The translations under genes were made by a program, and so were the position numbers. Of a stretch of 64,000 nt of DNA, positions 6,887-53,881 are shown piece by piece. This DNA comes from an uncultured Dialister sp. GTDB lineage: Bacteria > Bacillota > Negativicutes > Veillonellales > Dialisteraceae. The notes beneath the pieces were generated by a model. It ran no database searches and was not told the DNA's origin. It worked only from the letters and a program-made list of their open reading frames with translations. The stretch's first letter is position 1; every line of letters starts with the position of its first letter. Location: assembly GCA_900541485.1 (NCBI GenBank), contig UQJW01000008.1, positions 1-64,000 of the forward strand, in the 5' to 3' direction.

Positions 6887-7879
6887 TTATATATTCCAGT
6901 ATTTGGGAACGTATTTCGATGTAAATAAATTGATGGCAAAGTTGTCGGTAAGACCGCTGATGTAGTCTTTGGCGGCAAGGGAAATATTTCCGCCTGCCAG
7001 TTTTTTCTGTTTTTCCGGAAGTTCATCAGGGTGTTTCATGTACCATTCGTAGAGCATGACGACTACATCGTGCCCTCTTTTTCTGTCGGGAATGAGGGCC
7101 TCTGACATGTAGACCTGGGAAAACATAAATTCCCGGAATTCGAGGAGCGTTTCATCTCCTTCACGGCTCATGTGTATGCTGTCCTGATCCGCCGAATTCG
7201 CAACGAGATCTTCTACCATCGCGGTAATCATGGAGGAGTGGGTCGTTCCGAGAACTCTCCGTACTCTTTCGGGGAGCTTGTCCGCCGAGATGAGGCCCAT
7301 GCTTTCCGCATCGTCATAGTCGTGGCAAAGATAGGCAATACGGTCGGCGTATTTGATTAAACTGCCTTCCAATGTACGGGCTTTCAAATTTCCCGAGTGA
7401 TTTAAAATACCGTCTTTCACTTCTTTGGTCAGGTTCAGTCCTTTTCCGTCATTTTCCAGTGCATCGACAATCCGCAAACTTTGCTCGTTATGCTCGAAAT
7501 GTCCGCACGCATCACGGAGGGCCTGCTCGCCTACATGGCCGAATGGGGTATGTCCCAGGTCATGGCCCATCGCAATGGCTTCGACAAGGTCTTCGTTCAG
7601 CCGGAGTGCTCTTGCCATGGTCCGCCCGATTTGTGCCACTTCCAGCGTATGGGTCATACGGGTGCGGTAGTGGTCGCCTTTGGGGGCAATGTATACCTGC
7701 GTTTTGTGTTTGAGCCGCCGGAATGAATTGCTGTGAAGAATTCTGTCTCTGTCTCTCTGGAAAGCCGTTCTGATCGGGTCTTCCGTTTCCTTTCTTCCCC
7801 GCTCCGCTTCGTCTGCAAAAGCCGCCCGGGGGCTTAATATATTTCTTTCTGTCTGTTCTGTCCGTTCACGAATGAGCAT
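6887..7879 (-). CDS. dgt: dGTPase-like deoxyguanosinetriphosphate triphosphohydrolase
   Basis: A 330-residue HD-domain enzyme that hydrolyses dNTPs (classically dGTP) to the nucleoside and tripolyphosphate, limiting the dNTP pool. Seen: RTRMTHTLEVAQIGR with the first HD-domain His, then MGHDLGHTPFGHVGE (HD pair around residues 100-115), and an N-terminal RTAFQRDRDRILHSNSFRRL helix typical of the Dgt family. AAAGGAG lies 7 nt before ATG 7879. In Firmicutes this gene often precedes dnaG-rpoD, but here it is alone. A palindrome at 7910-7926 overlaps its likely promoter. Confidence 0.9.
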   Translation of the reverse strand: MLIRERTEQTERNILSPRAAFADEAERGRKETEDPIRTAFQRDRDRILHSNSFRRLKHKTQVYIAPKGDHYRTRMTHTLEVAQIGRTMARALRLNEDLVEAIAMGHDLGHTPFGHVGEQALRDACGHFEHNEQSLRIVDALENDGKGLNLTKEVKDGILNHSGNLKARTLEGSLIKYADRIAYLCHDYDDAESMGLISADKLPERVRRVLGTTHSSMITAMVEDLVANSADQDSIHMSREGDETLLEFREFMFSQVYMSEALIPDRKRGHDVVVMLYEWYMKHPDELPEKQKKLAGGNISLAAKDYISGLTDNFAINLFTSKYVPKYWNI

Positions 7880-13241: not shown

Positions 13242-14456
13242 TTAGAACTTGTAGTTCAGGGATACTGCCCAAGCATCATCTTCGTCTTTAACGTCTTTTG
13301 CGTCTACATCAAATGCATATTCACCCTGGAGATAAACGTTCTTCATAAGTGCTACCTTTGCAACAGCATTCCAGAAAGTAACATTGTCTGCATCTTTAAG
13401 GTAGTCCAATGCATTGGTTCCCAAACCGGTACCGCCGAAGTAAACATTTTGATCCACATCATTATAAGCTACATCAATGCTGAAAGTACCCGGTTTTTTC
13501 AGGTTCATCTTGCCATAGCCGATACCTGCGTTCCATGCTTTATCATTTTCATCTGCTGTGGTATTCTTCCAGTATTCGCCGAATACACGGAAATCTTCAA
13601 CAGGAACTACAAGGCCGGCACCCATGATTTCAGCTCTTTCATCCTTCGCAGAATCTTTGTCAGCCACATAGTTCAAATCCAGTTTAGCAACGCCGAAGTC
13701 AGCCATGCCTTTTGCATAGAGTACATCTGCATCCTTAGCTGCACCGGCATTGAACTGGCCATAGCCTACGGTTGCACCGAATTTGCCGAGACCGAACTGT
13801 ACCTGTGCACCGTCAAATCCTGCACCGGATCCGTAGAGCCAGCCGCCCTGGTTACCGAAGTTATTGCCATAACGACCAATAGTAACAGCTGCTGTATCAC
13901 CGAATTGATGTCTTACATTGAGAACATCCATCTGTACATTGCCATCATCATCTTTTGCATCTTTGAAATACATATTGGTAGAAATACGACCGTTTACAGT
14001 GGTGCTTTCATTGACATCAGCCTTTACATTGATTCTCATACGGCCGTCCCAATTATCATCTTTACCGTCTGTTTTATTCTGGTAACGCATACGAGCATCG
14101 CCGGACCAGTAGAGGTTTCCGACTTTCTTTTCCAACTTGGATACACGGACTCCGAGGTTTGCCAGTTCGTCAGCATATTCGCCTGCCAGTTTTTCCAAAG
14201 TTGCTTTCTGTTCTGCGTTCAGCTGGTCTTCACGGGCCATCATGCGGGCAACAATCTGTGCCAATTCATAACGGGTGATGTTTCTTTCTCCTCTGAATGT
14301 GCCGTCCGGGTAGCCGATAACAACGCCCTGATCGGAAAGATCGGCTACTGCCTGGTAAGCCCAGTCACTGGTGGATACATCAGAGAACGGATTTGCAGCG
14401 TATGCGGATACGCCGGTTGTGAGTGCTGCTGCAGCGATTGCGAGGATTTTTTTCAT
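13242..14456 (-). CDS. SLH-domain outer-membrane porin, OmpM-like (copy 1)
   Basis: A 404-residue outer-membrane protein of the Negativicutes OmpM type, which tethers the outer membrane to peptidoglycan and forms a pore. Seen: signal peptide residues 1-20 ending VSAYA; SLH domain about 22-80 with NPFSDVSTSDWAYQAV and ITRYELAQIVARMM; a coiled-coil linker about 82-117; then a beta-barrel with alternating short strands ending in a C-terminal aromatic YKF. ATG 14456 sits 8 nt from AAGGAG; the upstream ATG 14462 is too close to it. The first 120 residues are nearly identical to copy 2, while the barrels differ. Confidence 0.92.
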   Translation of the reverse strand: MKKILAIAAAALTTGVSAYAANPFSDVSTSDWAYQAVADLSDQGVVIGYPDGTFRGERNITRYELAQIVARMMAREDQLNAEQKATLEKLAGEYADELANLGVRVSKLEKKVGNLYWSGDARMRYQNKTDGKDDNWDGRMRINVKADVNESTTVNGRISTNMYFKDAKDDDGNVQMDVLNVRHQFGDTAAVTIGRYGNNFGNQGGWLYGSGAGFDGAQVQFGLGKFGATVGYGQFNAGAAKDADVLYAKGMADFGVAKLDLNYVADKDSAKDERAEIMGAGLVVPVEDFRVFGEYWKNTTADENDKAWNAGIGYGKMNLKKPGTFSIDVAYNDVDQNVYFGGTGLGTNALDYLKDADNVTFWNAVAKVALMKNVYLQGEYAFDVDAKDVKDEDDAWAVSLNYKF

Positions 14457-15325: not shown

Positions 15326-16615
15326 TTAGAATGCGTAGTTCAGTTCAACGCCCCAAGCATCTTTCGGATCTTCATTTATTCCCTTTACATCAGCAGCAAA
15401 GCTGTAGTAGGCATCGAGTTCGAGGTTCTTCTGAAGTGCAACGCCTGCTTTAGCCTGCCAGAAAGTTACATCAGCAAGTGATGCGAACTGAAGGTGATCT
15501 GTCAGATCAAGAGCGGAGTTACCAAACCAGATAGAACCGGCTTTTGCATCCACATAGTGTGCGCCGATGCTGAAAGAACCAGGTTTATCGAGATCTACTT
15601 CACCGAAAGTGACACCGGCCGTCCAAAGTTTAGCCTTTTCTTTTTCTCCGTTCAATTTTCCACGGGTTTCTACATAGTCACCGTCAACGGTTACAGGACC
15701 GAGTCCGAAGTTAGCACCGACACCCCAGACTTTTGTATCACGCAATGAATCATTTTCGTGTGTAAAGTCTTCCTTGTTTTCCAAATAGAAACCAGAGAGT
15801 CCTACAGGACCTGCATTGCCGGAAATTTTACCATACCATGCTTCAGCAGCAGAAAATTCAGGGAGATTTTCATCCAAGTCTCTCAAGTGATACGCCATTG
15901 CGTCCTGGAAACGACCATAGCCGAACTCGAGACCGATTTTGCCGGTGTCATAGCCTGCTACGACACCATCGAAACGGCCGTCTTCATCCCAGAATACGCC
16001 GGTCTTGTCGAGAGCTACGCCCTGACGACCGATGTCGATATATGCTGCTTCACTCGGAGCATAACGGACATGGATACGGTCCATCTCTGTATTGGAACCT
16101 GCTCCGTCCTGGAAATCAAATTCGTTGACAAAACGGCCGGAAACGGTGACCTTGTCATTCACTTCCGCATCCGCATTAATTCTGATACGGCCGTTCCATG
16201 TATCTGCATGGTCTCTCAGACCGTCCAGGTTGCGCTGGTATTGCATACGAGCATCGCCGGACCAGTAGAGGTTACCGACTTTCTTTTCCAACTTGGATAC
16301 ACGGACTCCGAGGTTTGCCAATTCGTCAGCATATTCGTTTGCCAGTTTTTCCAGAGTTGCTCTCTGTTCTGCATTCAGCTGGTCTTCACGGGCCATCATG
16401 CGGGCAACAATCTGTGCCAATTCATAACGGGTGATGTTTCTTTCTCCTCTGAATGTGCCGTCCGGGTAGCCGATAACAACGCCCTGATCGGAAAGATCGG
16501 CTACTGCCTGGTAAGCCCAGTCACTGGTGGATACATCAGAGAACGGATTTGCAGCGTATGCGGATACGCCGGTTGTGAGTGCTGCTGCTGCAGCGATTGC
16601 GAGAATCTTCTTCAT
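15326..16615 (-). CDS. SLH-domain outer-membrane porin, OmpM-like (copy 2)
   Basis: A 429-residue paralogue of the porin at 13.2 kb. Seen: signal peptide about 1-21, SLH domain about 23-81, coiled-coil linker with LANLGVRVSKLEKKVGNL, then a barrel of different sequence from copy 1 that ends in YAF. AGGAGG precedes ATG 16615. DNA identity with copy 1 is near-complete across the first 370 nt of coding sequence and then falls off abruptly in the barrel. That points to recent duplication or gene conversion of the anchor domain with diversification of the surface part. Each gene has its own promoter and terminator. Confidence 0.92.
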   Translation of the reverse strand: MKKILAIAAAAALTTGVSAYAANPFSDVSTSDWAYQAVADLSDQGVVIGYPDGTFRGERNITRYELAQIVARMMAREDQLNAEQRATLEKLANEYADELANLGVRVSKLEKKVGNLYWSGDARMQYQRNLDGLRDHADTWNGRIRINADAEVNDKVTVSGRFVNEFDFQDGAGSNTEMDRIHVRYAPSEAAYIDIGRQGVALDKTGVFWDEDGRFDGVVAGYDTGKIGLEFGYGRFQDAMAYHLRDLDENLPEFSAAEAWYGKISGNAGPVGLSGFYLENKEDFTHENDSLRDTKVWGVGANFGLGPVTVDGDYVETRGKLNGEKEKAKLWTAGVTFGEVDLDKPGSFSIGAHYVDAKAGSIWFGNSALDLTDHLQFASLADVTFWQAKAGVALQKNLELDAYYSFAADVKGINEDPKDAWGVELNYAF

Positions 16616-26578: not shown

Positions 26579-27385
26579 TTATTCTTCCCTTTCCCTTGCT
26601 CTCTCTGCCTTTGCGTAAGCGTTCGGGTGGTGTTGCAAAAAACGCTGGAGCCTTCTTGCCATGGGATAGAAGGTCAGGTATGTGAGACTTCCCGAAACTG
26701 CACCGCCTACGAAGGGAACGGATTTGGAAATCCATCCGGCCAGTGCCTTTTCCGTCACCTTTGCCCCGGTCATTTCCGCGCCTTTTTTCAGTACGGGAAT
26801 TCCGTTTTTCAAAGTGTGGCGAATCATCTGATCGCTTATTTTTTCTGCATATTTCTTCGAATAATAGGTCACTGCCTGGCCTGCCAATTTATCTCCGCAC
26901 ATGATGCGGTAAAATAATCTGATTTTATCTTTGATTTCCTCCTCCATACCGCGGCCGCCTTTTTCAAGCGCCGGCCAACCGTAAAGGTACAGCAGTTTCT
27001 GCATAACCAAAATGACGTGTCGGTTGAACTGGCGGGCATCATAGACTGTCGCAACGACGGCGGCAATACCTCCGGGAATCCCTGCCGCAGCCGAACGGAT
27101 AGCTGCTTTTTTCGTTTCCCGGCGGATACATATATCTGCCAGACGGTCGATGACGTCAGGCGGTATTTCTGCCTGTGCCGGCGAGAATGCAATCGCTTTT
27201 TCAACCTGCTCCGCCGGATAATACGGTCCGAGACAATCCCACAAAAAAGCGGCACGGTCCAGACGGTTTTCCTTACTTTCAAGTAATTTGGCGACTCCTT
27301 CGGGCGTGAAATCATTCCATATATCTTTCGCTACGGAATAACTGCCTGAAATATCGGCAAGCCGCCATATATTTTTCAACTTCAT
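26579..27385 (-). CDS. EcsC-like protein
   Basis: A 268-residue protein resembling the EcsC family. Seen: a central hydrophobic stretch with GIPGGIAAVVATVYDARQF followed by HVILVMQKLLYLYGWP, the family's conserved P..D...-YG pattern, and a second VPFVGGAVSGSLTYL segment. Otherwise it is helical and charged. ATG 27385 is chosen for AGGAGG spacing over ATG 27391. It lies 84 nt downstream of the endolysin gene and may be read with it. EcsC function is poorly defined; a link to the lysis genes is only positional. Confidence 0.65.
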   Translation of the reverse strand: MKLKNIWRLADISGSYSVAKDIWNDFTPEGVAKLLESKENRLDRAAFLWDCLGPYYPAEQVEKAIAFSPAQAEIPPDVIDRLADICIRRETKKAAIRSAAAGIPGGIAAVVATVYDARQFNRHVILVMQKLLYLYGWPALEKGGRGMEEEIKDKIRLFYRIMCGDKLAGQAVTYYSKKYAEKISDQMIRHTLKNGIPVLKKGAEMTGAKVTEKALAGWISKSVPFVGGAVSGSLTYLTFYPMARRLQRFLQHHPNAYAKAERAREREE

Positions 27386-27469
27386 TCCCATTCCTCCTGA
27401 AATTTCCTGTATCTCATTTTTCTTTTTTATTTATCATACCATAATATGACTTTCGGTCAAAATCGTAAT

Positions 27470-28012
27470 TTATGAAATCAATTGTTTACTGTAAAATTCC
27501 GCTTTACCGCGGAGCAAACGACCGCCGGGGACAAGAACACCGTTATTTTCATAATCGGGCAGGTAGAGAAGGTCCCACCGCATATCGGGATCACCGCTTC
27601 CGATTCCGTAGCCGTCTGTTTTGGCAATTTCCGCATGGGTATAAATATCACCGGCAGAAAGTCCCAGATAAAACAGGGCGTACCCGCAAAAAAGCGCCAG
27701 TGCCTCTATCTGTTCTTCCGACGGTGCTTCTCCCAAATCCACGCCCGAAGGAGCGTCATACCAGCAGCACGCCCCGCAGGCACAGGCCATCGCCACACCG
27801 AGAGAACGTCCGTTTCTCCGCCATGTATGGGACAGCACCCGGGTGAAGTCGGAATGCATGACATGGAAACAGCCCCCACGGTCAATGACCGCGTGATAGG
27901 CCATGAAATCCGTCATGCGGTACGGCGCTGCCGTCCAATGAGCGTAAATACGGTCTATTTCTCCTTTCGCCGACATCAAATGTTTTGTTATCTCTTCTAT
28001 ATTCTGAATCAT
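27470..28012 (-). CDS. Phage-type endolysin, peptidoglycan amidase-like
   Basis: A 180-residue protein with the look of a PGRP/Amidase_2 N-acetylmuramoyl-L-alanine amidase of phages. Seen: MTDFMAYHAVIDRGGCFHVMH near residues 35-55 where the first zinc His and strand are expected, WRRNGRSLGVAMACACG, and the C-terminal THAEIAKTDGYG ... DMRWDLLYLPD that closes the zinc site in such enzymes. No signal peptide, so it needs a holin, and the gene directly upstream encodes one. ATG 28012 is preferred over TTG 28021. A small AAGGG-GAAA-CCCTT hairpin spans the holin stop just before its ribosome-binding site. Confidence 0.7.
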   Translation of the reverse strand: MIQNIEEITKHLMSAKGEIDRIYAHWTAAPYRMTDFMAYHAVIDRGGCFHVMHSDFTRVLSHTWRRNGRSLGVAMACACGACCWYDAPSGVDLGEAPSEEQIEALALFCGYALFYLGLSAGDIYTHAEIAKTDGYGIGSGDPDMRWDLLYLPDYENNGVLVPGGRLLRGKAEFYSKQLIS

Positions 28013-28033
28013 AATCTCCAAAAGGGTTTCCCC

Positions 28034-28537
28034 TTATTTCTTTCCTTTCATCTGTTTTACCAATTCCGCCAACGCGCTTACGCCGGCGTCGTTTAAATTT
28101 TCTGCAATACTCACCATTTCCGACGCCGCCAGATAGGCGATGCAGAGCCCGGCAAATACGGGCTGTCTTCCTGCTGCAACCAGCATATGGTCCGCCAGTG
28201 CACTTCCCAAAGTCAGAAGAATATACACCGCCAGTTTACCGCAAAATCCGTATTTCATTTCCCTGCTTGAAATAATTCCTGCCCGGTGAGCCGCCGGAAT
28301 GGCAAAAAGACAGGACAGGATATCCCGTTTCTTTTCCCCACGAAACTCCAGATATCCGTGAGCAAGAGCCAGCCACTTCGTCAGAAGATCAATCATCACC
28401 ACCGCCGCAAAAAGAGACGCCAGCTCTACATGGAAGAGGCCCTCTGCCAGAAAACCTGTCGCGATTCCCTTCAGCGGCCAGTCCTCAAAAAGACGATGCA
28501 GACTGTCCCGCAAAAAATGGTCCTGCCAAAACTCCAT
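28034..28537 (-). CDS. Phage holin, Cph1/TcdE-like family
   Basis: A 167-residue membrane protein of the phage holin 4 (Cph1/TcdE) type that would permeabilise the inner membrane for endolysin. Seen: hydrophobic segments at about 30-60, 100-120 and 125-150, with FAAVVMIDLLTKWLALAHG and the family's D-x-x-[ST]-[KG] pattern, and a C-terminal amphipathic helix SEMVSIAENLNDAG that is highly typical. ATG 28537 follows AAAGGAGG. It lies 14 nt downstream of the HTH gene and 21 nt upstream of the endolysin, forming a compact lysis cassette with no other phage genes. Confidence 0.8.
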   Translation of the reverse strand: MEFWQDHFLRDSLHRLFEDWPLKGIATGFLAEGLFHVELASLFAAVVMIDLLTKWLALAHGYLEFRGEKKRDILSCLFAIPAAHRAGIISSREMKYGFCGKLAVYILLTLGSALADHMLVAAGRQPVFAGLCIAYLAASEMVSIAENLNDAGVSALAELVKQMKGKK

Positions 28538-28551
28538 CCTCTCCTCCTTTC

Positions 28552-28785
28552 TTAAAACCAATACTCCGGATCTTTTTCCTTATCGAAGAAATATACGCCC
28601 AGTTCCTCCGGTGAAATCTGCAAAATTCTCATGGACTTGTAAATGTCCCGCTGGGAAAAATGAATCTGGTTATTCAGCCGCAATGACAACGACGTTTTAC
28701 TGATTCCCAAGCGTTTTGCAAATACTGTATCTGAACGCATTTTCTCGCGGATTCGTCCGCGGAGCTTTTCATAATTGAAATTCAT
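28552..28785 (-). CDS. Cro-like HTH protein, DUF739 family
   Basis: A 77-residue phage-type DNA-binding protein. Seen: MNFNYEKLRGRIREKM, a helix-turn-helix with TVFAKRLGISKTSLSLRLNN, and the family's C-terminal ISPEELGVYFF. The pattern closely follows DUF739/Cro-like proteins of Firmicute phages. ATG 28785 is chosen with GAGGA 5 nt upstream. It heads the HTH-holin-endolysin cassette, behind a TTGACA promoter with an 18-bp palindromic operator. It could autoregulate through that operator, though the operator also fits LexA. Confidence 0.8.
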   Translation of the reverse strand: MNFNYEKLRGRIREKMRSDTVFAKRLGISKTSLSLRLNNQIHFSQRDIYKSMRILQISPEELGVYFFDKEKDPEYWF

Positions 28786-28832
28786 CCTCTTCCTCACTTT
28801 CAAAACTATTCCCAAGGAATTTCAACTTTATT

Positions 28833-28850
28833 ATAGAACATATGTTCTAT
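28833..28850. promoter_or_regulatory. LexA-type (SOS) operator
   Basis: ATAGAACATATGTTCTAT is a perfect 18-bp palindrome containing GAAC-ATAT-GTTC, which fits the Gram-positive LexA box GAACRNRYGTTC. It lies just downstream of the predicted start site of the lysis cassette. Confidence 0.7.
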
Positions 28851-28859
28851 TTATAAGTA

Positions 28860-28888
28860 AGAATACCCCTTGCACAGAAGGCTGTCAA
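28860..28888 (-). promoter_or_regulatory. Promoter of the HTH-holin-endolysin cassette
   Basis: On the minus strand a consensus TTGACA, 17 nt, TATTCT. The start near 28853 puts the SOS-type palindrome at about +3 to +20. Confidence 0.7.
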
Positions 28889-28911: not shown

Positions 28912-28945
28912 AAAGAAAAACCCGGGCATCCGATACGCCCGGGCA
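28912..28945 (-). terminator. Terminator of the DUF2922-DUF1659 pair
   Basis: CCCGGGC...GCCCGGG stem followed by TTTTTC on the minus strand; it separates this pair from the lysis cassette. Confidence 0.8.
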
Positions 28946-28961: not shown

Positions 28962-29174
28962 TTAACCCTTATGGGTCAGAACGGATACTTCAGAACGGCG
29001 GACTGACTCCACCGGCATCTCTTGTAAATCACCGATTGCATTTCCCGCTTCAAAAAGCGCTTCATCGGGAGCACTTTCTTTGATACTGTTGAAAGTCATA
29101 TTTTTATAAGTCCCTTCGCCCGCTTCCACACGGACAATCAGCTTCGTCTTTTCAACGGTTTTAGCTACTGCCAT
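28962..29174 (-). CDS. DUF1659 small protein
   Basis: A 70-residue protein matching the DUF1659 pattern: a short beta-rich start (KLIVRVEAGEG), then TFNSIKESAPDEALFEAGNAIGDLQEMPVESVRRSEVS. GGAGG lies 6 nt before the ATG. It follows the DUF2922 gene by 45 nt. DUF1659 and DUF2922 genes are commonly paired in Firmicutes, often near amidase or holin-like genes; no function is established. The pair has its own terminator, so it is a neighbour of the lysis cassette and not part of its transcript. Confidence 0.75.
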   Translation of the reverse strand: MAVAKTVEKTKLIVRVEAGEGTYKNMTFNSIKESAPDEALFEAGNAIGDLQEMPVESVRRSEVSVLTHKG

Positions 29175-29219: not shown

Positions 29220-29429
29220 TTAACGGATTTCCGTTTCAGTTGTGGTCACAATGACCGCCTTGGAAAAAGAAGCCGCCTCAAGTCCTGCATGGTTTGCCAG
29301 AACAGGACGGATTTTTTCTGCTGCCGTTTGTACCTTTGCCAAATCCAAGTTGTCTTTCGGATTATTGATACGGACAGTCATCACCGTATCGGCAGCGGTC
29401 ATAAATTTCAATTCCAGTCTTTTATTCAT
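29220..29429 (-). CDS. DUF2922 small protein
   Basis: A 69-residue protein of the DUF2922 type: MNKRLELKFMTAADTVMTVRINNPKDNLDLAKVQTAAEKI reported here as a description of its start, followed by a beta-strand ending in TTTETEIR. ATG 29429 is chosen with AAGGAG 7 nt upstream; ATG 29435 is less well placed. It is the first gene of a two-gene unit with DUF1659. Function unknown. Confidence 0.75.
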   Translation of the reverse strand: MNKRLELKFMTAADTVMTVRINNPKDNLDLAKVQTAAEKIRPVLANHAGLEAASFSKAVIVTTTETEIR

Positions 29430-29439
29430 GAACACTCTC

Positions 29440-52383: not shown

Positions 52384-52677
52384 TTACTCCATGCTTTTTA
52401 TCATTGCTTTTCTATATTCAGCCGTATCTGCATGAACCATAGCAATAAAATCATTTTTGTTTTTTATGCTTATTGTCCCGGGAGATGACGGCTCCGGAAT
52501 TTTTTCATTTCTTTCTTCTTTTTCCCACAACATTAGATTTAATGCGTCTGTTGCCATTTCTAACGCTTCAGAACGCGTTTCTCCCTGACTGTAACAACCG
52601 CTGATATCAGGAAAAGATACAGAAAAACCGCCTTTCTTTTCGTGACAAAATAAAGCAGGATACGTATATTTCATCAT
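52384..52677 (-). CDS. HicB-family antitoxin-like protein, no HicA partner
   Basis: A 97-residue HicB-like protein. Seen: the partial RNase H-like fold MKYTYPALFCHEKKGGFSVSFPDISGCYSQGETRSEAL reported as a region, with the family's V-x-F-P-D-[IL]-x-G-C pattern and ALEMATDALNLML. ATG 52677 or 52674 follows AAAGGTTGGG. HicB normally binds and neutralises the HicA mRNA interferase encoded next to it, but no HicA-like gene is found within several hundred bases on either side. It may be a solitary regulator or a remnant. Confidence 0.8.
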   Translation of the reverse strand: MMKYTYPALFCHEKKGGFSVSFPDISGCYSQGETRSEALEMATDALNLMLWEKEERNEKIPEPSSPGTISIKNKNDFIAMVHADTAEYRKAMIKSME

Positions 52678-52696
52678 CAAACCCAACCTTTCTCTT

Positions 52697-52831
52697 TTAT
52701 AATTCATTTTCGATGTATGCAAGCATTTCCGGACAAGCGGGAACTACTTTTTACAGTTCTGACATCAAATCTCTTTCAAGTCTTGCAATATTTCCTGTCA
52801 TTTCCTTATTTCCCGACAGGGTTTGTAATAT
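52697..52831 (-). pseudogene. Possible degraded 3' extension of the 52.9-kb gene
   Basis: Directly in frame after the stop of the gene at 52832-53104, 26 sense codons (ILQTLSGNKEMTGNIARLER...), one TAA, then 17 codons (KVVPACPEMLAYIENEL) to a final stop. The protein-like quality of both stretches suggests a formerly longer or separate gene broken by two stop codons. Chance is possible. Confidence 0.3.
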
Positions 52832-53147: not shown

Positions 53148-53372
53148 TTATTTTCTCTCTAATTCTTCCCACAGTTTTTCAATAGGTTCGCTTTTTTTAT
53201 TATCTTTCAGATAGTCTTCGTAGGCTTCATTGGCCACTTTCACATCATATTCATCTTCAATGCGTTCCATAACAATGTTTCTTATGAATTCGGATACCGT
53301 GATTCCTTTCATTTCGGCACATTTTTTTAAAAATGTTTCATCTGCTTCACTCAATTCTAAAGATATCGTCAT
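53148..53372 (-). CDS. RelB/DinJ-like (DUF6290) antitoxin, no RelE partner
   Basis: A 74-residue ribbon-helix-helix antitoxin-like protein. Seen: MTISLELSEADETFLKKCAEMKGITVSEFIRNIVMERIEDEYD reported as a region, the standard RHH/DUF6290 opening, then NEAYEDYLKDNKKSEPIEKLW. Such genes are nearly always followed by a RelE-type toxin gene; here the next gene downstream is an unrelated 90-residue protein. It may be an orphan antitoxin. Confidence 0.75.
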   Translation of the reverse strand: MTISLELSEADETFLKKCAEMKGITVSEFIRNIVMERIEDEYDVKVANEAYEDYLKDNKKSEPIEKLWEELERK

Positions 53373-53470
53373 GATAAATTCTCCTCTCTTATATCATATA
53401 CCGTATTCCGCTTTTGTTTTTGTGTCAATTTCTGTAAATAACCCTTATCCGAAAATGGTATCTGCACTTT

Positions 53471-53881
53471 TTATTTCGGCTCATTTTCTTCTTCGTTTGT
53501 TTCCGCAAAAGAAAGACGGAAAGACAGGTCATCGGTCCATTTTTTCATCTCTTCCCGTACCATGTAGGGCGGTGTCGTTTCAGTGCCGCCCACCGTATTC
53601 GGCAGGGTCTTGAAGTGTCCGCCCCGGCCGTCGATACGGGTGAGGAGAATTCTGTTGATTTCTTTGACTTCCTCAAGAGTGATATTTTCTTTTTCGTGTG
53701 CCCGCAGGTACATCATGAGTTCTTTGTAATTGACGACTTCATTCACTTCGGTGCGTTCCGTTACCGGTGTATCTCCTGTAAGAAGACGCTCCGTTTCTTC
53801 TTCTGTCAGTGTATTTCCCTCGATGGCGGTGCTGTGGTGTGCCATTCTCACCATGACGGATTGCCGGTAGGCTTTATTCAT
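53471..53881 (-). CDS. Truncated Fic-like protein lacking the catalytic motif
   Basis: A 136-residue protein matching only the N-terminal half of Fic proteins. Seen: the inhibitory helix motif STAIEGN ([ST]xxxE[GN]) at about 17-23, and LEEVKEINRILLTRIDGRGGHFKTLP, the first part of the Fic fold. It stops before the HPFx(D/E)GNGR loop that catalyses AMP transfer, so it cannot be an active transferase. No continuation is visible after the stop. AAGGAA precedes ATG 53881. It follows the M48 protease gene by 34 nt. Either a truncated relic or a domain kept for regulation. Confidence 0.75.
   Translation of the reverse strand: MNKAYRQSVMVRMAHHSTAIEGNTLTEEETERLLTGDTPVTERTEVNEVVNYKELMMYLRAHEKENITLEEVKEINRILLTRIDGRGGHFKTLPNTVGGTETTPPYMVREEMKKWTDDLSFRLSFAETNEEENEPK

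Follow-up and report, generated by a model that had tools for sequence, protein, structure and literature searches.

Lysis driven by the SOS response has been described in prophages and tailocins, and there a phage can be blamed. In Bacillus subtilis, the xhlAB-xlyA genes of PBSX encode a holin and an endolysin that are induced by DNA damage and lead to vesicle release, and they sit in a defective prophage with head and tail (PMC5589764, available excerpt). The Hol/Lys genes of Pseudomonas aeruginosa, phage lysis genes acting without a phage, belong to the R/F-pyocin tailocin cluster and cause explosive lysis in a RecA-dependent manner, as the accessible part of PMC4834629 describes. Clostridial release loci of the TcdR/UviA type carry a non-phage holin-lysin pair (PMC9527704, in excerpt). 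A helix-turn-helix (HTH) regulator related to the one described below, MOR, forms part of the CI-MOR switch of TP901-1 (PDB 6to6, 6tri). Among published LexA boxes, that of B. subtilis reads GAACN4GTTC, and the C. difficile genes lexA and recA have GAACN4GTTT (PMC4234289, excerpt).

Here we analysed a lysis cassette in the window, by which we mean the whole 64-kb stretch of DNA under study. Unlike the PBSX genes, the window operon stands alone and has its own LexA-type box, and unlike Hol/Lys it has no tail genes among the ORFs scanned. As in the clostridial loci, a sigma-70-like gene lies close to relatives of the window module in the genomes G005, G009 and G010. The window itself carries a MOR-like gene plus a LexA-type box where those have a sigma factor, and no cargo is known for it. 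From TP901-1 it differs in having no CI gene beside the MOR relative and a LexA-type box in the promoter.

Results

A lysis cassette with a LexA-type box lies among ordinary chromosomal genes

Relatives were taken from 61 genomes of the NCBI order Veillonellales, the order of Allisonella (Dialister) histaminiformans. Annotation and the comparison with G007, the one genome of the set with the whole cassette, were made in six frames. The features are as follows.

29220..29435, minus strand: DUF2922 gene, 71 aa (PF11148, E 2.5e-15); same position in G007, 45% identical
28962..29174, minus strand: DUF1659 gene, 70 aa (PF07872, E 2.5e-17); same position in G007, 43% identical
28920..28944, minus strand: terminator-like hairpin, lying after DUF1659 and before the cassette promoter, 10-bp stem and T run
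28883..28888, minus strand: -35 element TTGACA, also in G007, G011, G012 and G013
28860..28865, minus strand: -10 element TATTCT; TATTCT in G007, TATACT in G011, G012 and G013
28833..28850, no strand assigned: LexA-type operator ATAGAACATATGTTCTAT, with the core GAACATATGTTC at 28836-28847, 12 nt past the -10 element
28552..28785, minus strand: DUF739 protein, MOR/Cro-like, 77 aa (E 8.7e-17); TP901-1 MOR by profile and fold
28034..28537, minus strand: holin, Phage_holin_4_1, 167 aa (PF05105, E 1e-7); 3-4 hydrophobic segments
27470..28012, minus strand: Amidase_2 endolysin, 180 aa (PF01510, E 1.5e-6)

The promoter of the original prediction, TTGACA and TATTCT with a 17-nt spacer, was found as claimed and lies on the minus strand, which that prediction had left unstated. 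The perfect 18-bp palindrome follows right after it, and the DUF739, holin and endolysin genes come in the claimed order with the correct gaps (DUF739-holin 14 nt, holin-amidase 21 nt). ATAGAACATATGTTCTAT is the only perfect 18-bp palindrome in the window, and a search for this sequence allowing up to 3 mismatches gave one occurrence (0.03 expected). The core pattern GAACN4GTTC occurs once against 1.24 expected per window; the bare core therefore carries no proof and was dropped as stand-alone evidence, and the weight rests on the place of the box and its conservation. As a Gram-positive LexA-type box, GAACATATGTTC occupies a promoter position and is kept in G007. The DUF1659 and DUF2922 genes, absent from the original prediction, lie upstream on the same strand and belong to the conserved unit. 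The hairpin before the promoter folds within a 106-nt stretch, with a z-score for the stretch of only -1.57.

The neighbours of the cassette are ordinary chromosomal genes for permeases, RNase J, MnmE and ABC transporters. An SLH-porin and a TonB-domain protein are also encoded in the window, and both fit a two-membrane cell. In a Pfam scan of 46 of the window's ORFs, no integrase, head, capsid, tail, packaging or phage replication family was found, which for these ORFs bears out the earlier claim that integrase, capsid, tail and replication genes are missing.

Several other features of the window were recorded. The ORF directly after the amidase gene (26579-27391, 270 aa) has no Pfam or PHROG match, no NCBIfam match near the cut-off and, within the 80 kb of G007 contig compared, no counterpart. 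A degenerate repeat of several hundred bases, interspersed between genes, forms about 11 clusters (judged from 20 of 29 repeat families), at 0.1-0.5, 12.5-13.1, 15, 17, 21.6-22, 26.0-26.6, 29.85-30.9, 35.8-36.3, 51.7-52.3, 55-55.4 and 56.6-57.4 kb; two of the clusters flank the cassette region, one on each side, and the repeat yields many false ORFs. A 300-nt direct repeat (14064-14363 and 16220-16519, 95% identical), the second copy of which lies within the SLH-porin gene (15326-16615), was read as a duplicated or truncated porin copy. A HicB-like antitoxin gene (52384-52722) has a DUF6290 gene and a short ORF with a phrog_11900 match (E 5e-25) close by, at 53148-53881; these are possibly toxin-antitoxin genes or their remnants.

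The cassette encodes a MOR-like protein, a holin and an amidase

The DUF739 protein belongs to the MOR/Cro type by both sequence and fold. Its profile matched TP901-1 MOR (E 3.9e-13), and its model (five helices, mean pLDDT 79, pTM 0.59) had MOR bound to CI as its best fold match (6tri_B, E 1.4e-4). A CI gene beside it was seen neither in the window nor in the G007 cassette. By comparison, a CI-like gene lies divergent to DUF739 in 7 of the 8 prophage-type loci opened (L004, L006, L007, L008, L011, L012 and L015) and was not seen in the eighth, L014; these 8 do not include L009, L010 and L013. Both CI-like proteins tested (from L006 and from L080, a wider stretch of L007) have a LexA-type C-terminal part that scores under the LexA cut-off. 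Judged from sequence, the window cassette lacks CI and has a LexA-type box in its stead.

The holin scored 32.4 bits against PF05105 (cut-off 22.2) and 15.3 bits against TIGR01593, under the cut-off of 40.2, and hydropathy gave 3-4 transmembrane segments. The amidase scored 29 bits against PF01510 (cut-off 26) and has no evident signal peptide. Its AlphaFold model (pLDDT 88.4, pTM 0.88) has AmpDh2, T7 lysozyme, PGRPs and clostridial endolysins as fold neighbours at a modest TM of about 0.35-0.5, and a sequence search against the PDB gave no match. His25, His126 and Asp141, which we take to be the zinc ligands of this family, are invariant in 12/12 sequences. Family, fold and the His/His/Asp set indicate a peptidoglycan hydrolase with an intact predicted active site.

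The same holin family occurs in three prophage-type lysis cassettes of the clade (L076, L086 and L078 18854-19923), where a holin and a GH25 lysin are followed, by eye, by a coiled-coil membrane protein that is perhaps a spanin. The window cassette differs from these in having an amidase instead of GH25, a MOR-like gene in front and no coiled-coil third gene. In a two-membrane cell, the absence of this third gene may favour vesicles or partial lysis.

The five-gene unit is kept in a second species

The window IleS is 82-83% identical to that of five genomes of the order (G005 and G007-G010). Among the 61 genomes, relatives of the DUF739 protein were found in 11, of the holin in 12 and of the amidase in 17, and the three genes are adjacent in G007 only. 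There the unit reads DUF2922-DUF1659-box-DUF739-holin-amidase, in the same order and strand as in the window and between different flanks, with identities of 61% for DUF739, 47% for the holin and 65% for the amidase. The promoter alignment keeps TTGACA, AAGGGGTATTCTT and GAACATATGTTCTAT, and the outer palindrome bases are partly lost; the conserved part is thus the LexA-type core, not the long palindrome. When the 274 six-frame window ORFs of at least 60 aa were compared with 80 kb of the 115-kb G007 contig, the five unit genes were matched (some also via antisense frames), and the only other matches were to a second holin and a second DUF739. Since no other window ORF was matched there, the unit stays together while its surroundings differ. 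Relatives of all three cassette genes also come from contigs of 1675 nt (P0002, P0067 and P0096), and the equal sizes suggest that the trio is present elsewhere.

Confinement of the cassette to intact prophages would have spoken against the original prediction. In G007 a prophage-type lysis region lies some 8 kb away from the cassette, and genes that by eye resemble argS and pyrG separate the two. The DUF739-holin-amidase trio was likewise not seen in phage or viral collections. Comparison with the relatives upheld the LexA-type operator, the lysis gene order and the non-prophage setting.

Against 50,697 phage records, the cassette DNA gave no match by blastn and the holin no relative in protein mode; the amidase gave 2 weak matches, and DUF739 relatives occurred in 288 records, all below 60% identity. 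On these searches, a phage copy of the cassette was rejected. A pattern scan of viral contigs gave 9 amidase and 8 holin loci at 27-44% identity; it confirmed a DUF739 relative in none, and none of the 17 loci had a DUF739 match within the stretch examined. The genome contigs searched yielded 3 distant holin loci.

The box is very probably a LexA site

In the whole G007 genome there are 5 GAACN4GTTC sites, 4 within ORFs and 1 at the cassette promoter, and 4 GAACN4GTTTG sites, 3 within ORFs and 1 at the lexA promoter, coding status being judged by ORF inspection. The lexA and cassette promoters are thus the only promoter-placed sites of both strict patterns. A lexA gene was found in 7/8 relatives' genomes, and GAACN4GTTTG lies in all 7 of the lexA promoters checked; that of G033 additionally has AGAACATATGTTCT, identical to the window 14-mer. 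G011 and G012, with no DUF739 match, carry TTGACA-17-TATACT-12-GAAC(AAAT or AAAC)GTTC, followed by a small ORF, DUF2922 and DUF1659, so that TTGACA-17-TAT(T/A)CT-12/13 nt-box is common to the window, G007, G011 and G012. G013 has the same layout with a 7-of-8 box. Boxes also precede radA in G011 (GAACGCATGTTC, L218 1501) and G012 (GAACGCCCGTTC, L229 1501), both read on the + strand of the locus; the G011 radA was identified by TIGR00416 and the G012 copy by likeness. In G012 a box further lies upstream of lexA. GAACN4GTTC totals 8 sites in G012 and 11 in G011, and the remaining sites are in ORFs or not classed with certainty. From the site placement in G007, the boxes of G011 and G012 without DUF739, the radA boxes and the 7/7 lexA promoters, the box is very probably that of LexA and not of the HTH protein.

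Over 941,346 bases (61 stretches including the window), 6 of 7 GAACN4GTTC sites lie at starts of sigma, DUF2922, DUF1659, holin or DUF739 genes, within intervals from 500 nt before to 120 nt inside the called gene that cover 6.65% of bases. The binomial probabilities (5.7e-7; 9.3e-6 for 5/6 sites without the window; 1.1e-4 for 4/5 without the window and L078 of G007) are too small, because some genomes are related (G011/G012 and G034/G035 seem to be close pairs) and the sites had already been seen when the interval limits were fixed. Eleven permuted palindromes had 0-2 matches in the intervals and 5-35 outside. In G005, GAACN4GTTC is rare (4 sites vs 86 for the reversed control), and its 4 GAACN4GTTTG sites include one at lexA and another where a sigma-DUF2922-DUF1659 module begins. 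Such depletion is not general, the site and control counts being 5 and 10 in G007, 11 and 10 in G011, and 8 and 6 in G012.

The promoters of recA (L182-L191) and uvrB (L192-L201) were examined in ten relatives each. A full box lies within 300 nt of recA in 0/10 genomes, with a 7-of-8 box in 2 (G011 and G012); uvrB has a full box in 0/10 and a 7-of-8 box in 5 (G004, G008, G011, G012 and G013). In G011, G012 and G013 the latter reads GAACGGCTGTTT, which has the published C. difficile form GAACN4GTTT and makes uvrB a possible target in these three. Given the absence of a full box at recA and uvrB, this clade has either a small SOS regulon, perhaps an unusually small one, or one that works with weaker boxes.

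DUF2922 and DUF1659 form the steady core of a wider module

DUF1659 scored above the cut-off in 55/61 genomes of the order and in 1/14 control genomes. We examined 45 DUF1659 loci, 44 of the 67 matches plus the window: DUF2922 is present in all 45, a sigma-70-like match in 16 and a holin of the cassette family in 5. A strict box stands at the module in six (GAACN4GTTC in the window, L078, L082, L143 and L145; GAACN4GTTTG in L077), and neither strict box in the other 39. In G010 the box is followed by sigma-DUF2922-DUF1659-holin-GH25, in G009 it lies between a sigma-like gene and holin-GH25, and in G004 two small ORFs of membrane type come after sigma-DUF2922-DUF1659, together with a lysin-like ORF. 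On this sequence comparison, the regulator and lysin appear to vary around a steady DUF2922/DUF1659 core.

A lysin-like family was also noted downstream of DUF1659 (L145 7430-7984, L174 7746-8303 and L143 about 7305-7733). The lysin-like ORFs of G004 and G011 matched neither a Pfam nor a PHROG family and came close to no NCBIfam cut-off, and the G004 ORF gave nothing worth naming against PDB sequences; the label comes from position and a lysozyme-like motif seen by eye.

In titles and abstract openings, the literature linked no LexA box to DUF2922/DUF1659/holin modules, and at the same depth no such module was described under LexA in Negativicutes, UviA/UviB, or LexA or holin in Megasphaera/Dialister. 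Searches on LexA-regulated domesticated lysis found nothing. Among the papers searched, one mentions DUF1659 and none DUF2922.

Discussion

The observed sequence, gene order, conservation, family membership and box distribution point to a chromosomal, phage-derived lysis operon repressed by LexA, and we consider it likely that this is a domesticated SOS-inducible module for lysis or release. LexA control of the operon is very probable, and its retention by selection probable. In an undamaged cell, LexA would sit on the box just past the strong promoter and block it. Upon DNA damage, RecA would trigger LexA self-cleavage and release the cassette, and one transcript would yield the MOR-like protein, the holin and the amidase. 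The holin would open the inner membrane, and the amidase would reach and cut the peptidoglycan. The cell would then lyse or shed vesicles, letting out its contents, perhaps including the DUF2922 and DUF1659 proteins. A probable task of the MOR-like protein is to limit or postpone expression of its own operon, or else to displace the CI repressors that resident prophages carry.

Beside the domesticated module, the original prediction had offered a stripped prophage remnant that kept its lysis control; as a rival we considered decaying lysis genes, left over once the rest was lost and without present function. All three cassette genes come from phage families, holin relatives in G005 and G001 adjoin GH25 lysins near tail-like genes (by eye), and in viral contig L062 an amidase relative lies beside a weak holin match. 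Yet the ORFs are intact, order, promoter and box are the same in a second species with other flanks, and the amidase keeps its putative zinc ligands, which makes a remnant improbable; moreover, the cassette aside, no phage family occurs among the ORFs scanned, and the 1675-nt contigs hint at the trio elsewhere. We therefore prefer the domesticated module. A prophage trigger, in which an SOS-made MOR-like protein acts as antirepressor on a resident CI and the extra holin-lysin pair speeds release, is consistent with the MOR match and with the DUF739/CI-like pair of prophage type on the same G007 contig (L015). It is very doubtful, as the window DUF739 is only 33% identical to the DUF739 of that prophage locus.

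The palindrome might also serve the HTH protein, or a prophage CI, as operator. Cro-type proteins often autoregulate, and prophage-type DUF739 genes mostly adjoin a divergent CI-like gene, as described above. But G011 and G012 share the box and the layout without having DUF739, boxes also lie upstream of lexA and radA, and palindromes, each unlike the box, turned up in three of six prophage CI/DUF739 intergenic regions scanned, the other three having none. The OL of TP901-1, AGTTC-N9-GAACT, has the opposite orientation and another spacing (PMC4941734, excerpt), and MOR apparently does not bind DNA efficiently alone (PMC7250872, excerpt). An HTH self-operator was dropped as the main reading on the box distribution and the TP901-1 comparison, and we regard ownership of the box by the HTH protein or CI as highly unlikely. 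Release of cargo as in the clostridial sigma-holin-endolysin loci, with the DUF2922/DUF1659 or a distant product freed without a virus, would be a special case of the LexA-controlled module. In the window and G007, DUF2922-DUF1659 precede the holin-lysin pair on one strand with DUF739 between, they also precede such a pair in G010, at L082 and, across a long gap, at L083, with a sigma-70-like gene in front and GH25 as the lysin, and sigma factor, holin and endolysin are a known clostridial pattern (PMC9527704, excerpt). However, the cassette holin family is found in only 5/45 DUF1659 loci within the stretch, and in the window the box and the two DUF genes have a terminator-like hairpin between them, so that cargo release is conceivable and on the unlikely side.

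More speculatively, in this branch of the Veillonellales the SOS response may have shrunk to hardly more than lexA and a module for self-lysis or release, joined by radA in some species; opening the cell would be its main output after damage. Host LexA would have replaced CI, the DUF2922 and DUF1659 proteins would be the released goods, and regulators (sigma factor, MOR) and lysins (GH25, amidase and an unknown type) would swap between species. We put this picture forward only tentatively.

If our reading is true, a stand-alone, LexA-boxed lysis operon in at least two species, within a wider module that includes two widespread, uncharacterised small proteins, would represent a host-owned release circuit, and DNA-damaging drugs could trigger it. 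The cassette context would also give a first handle on DUF2922 and DUF1659.
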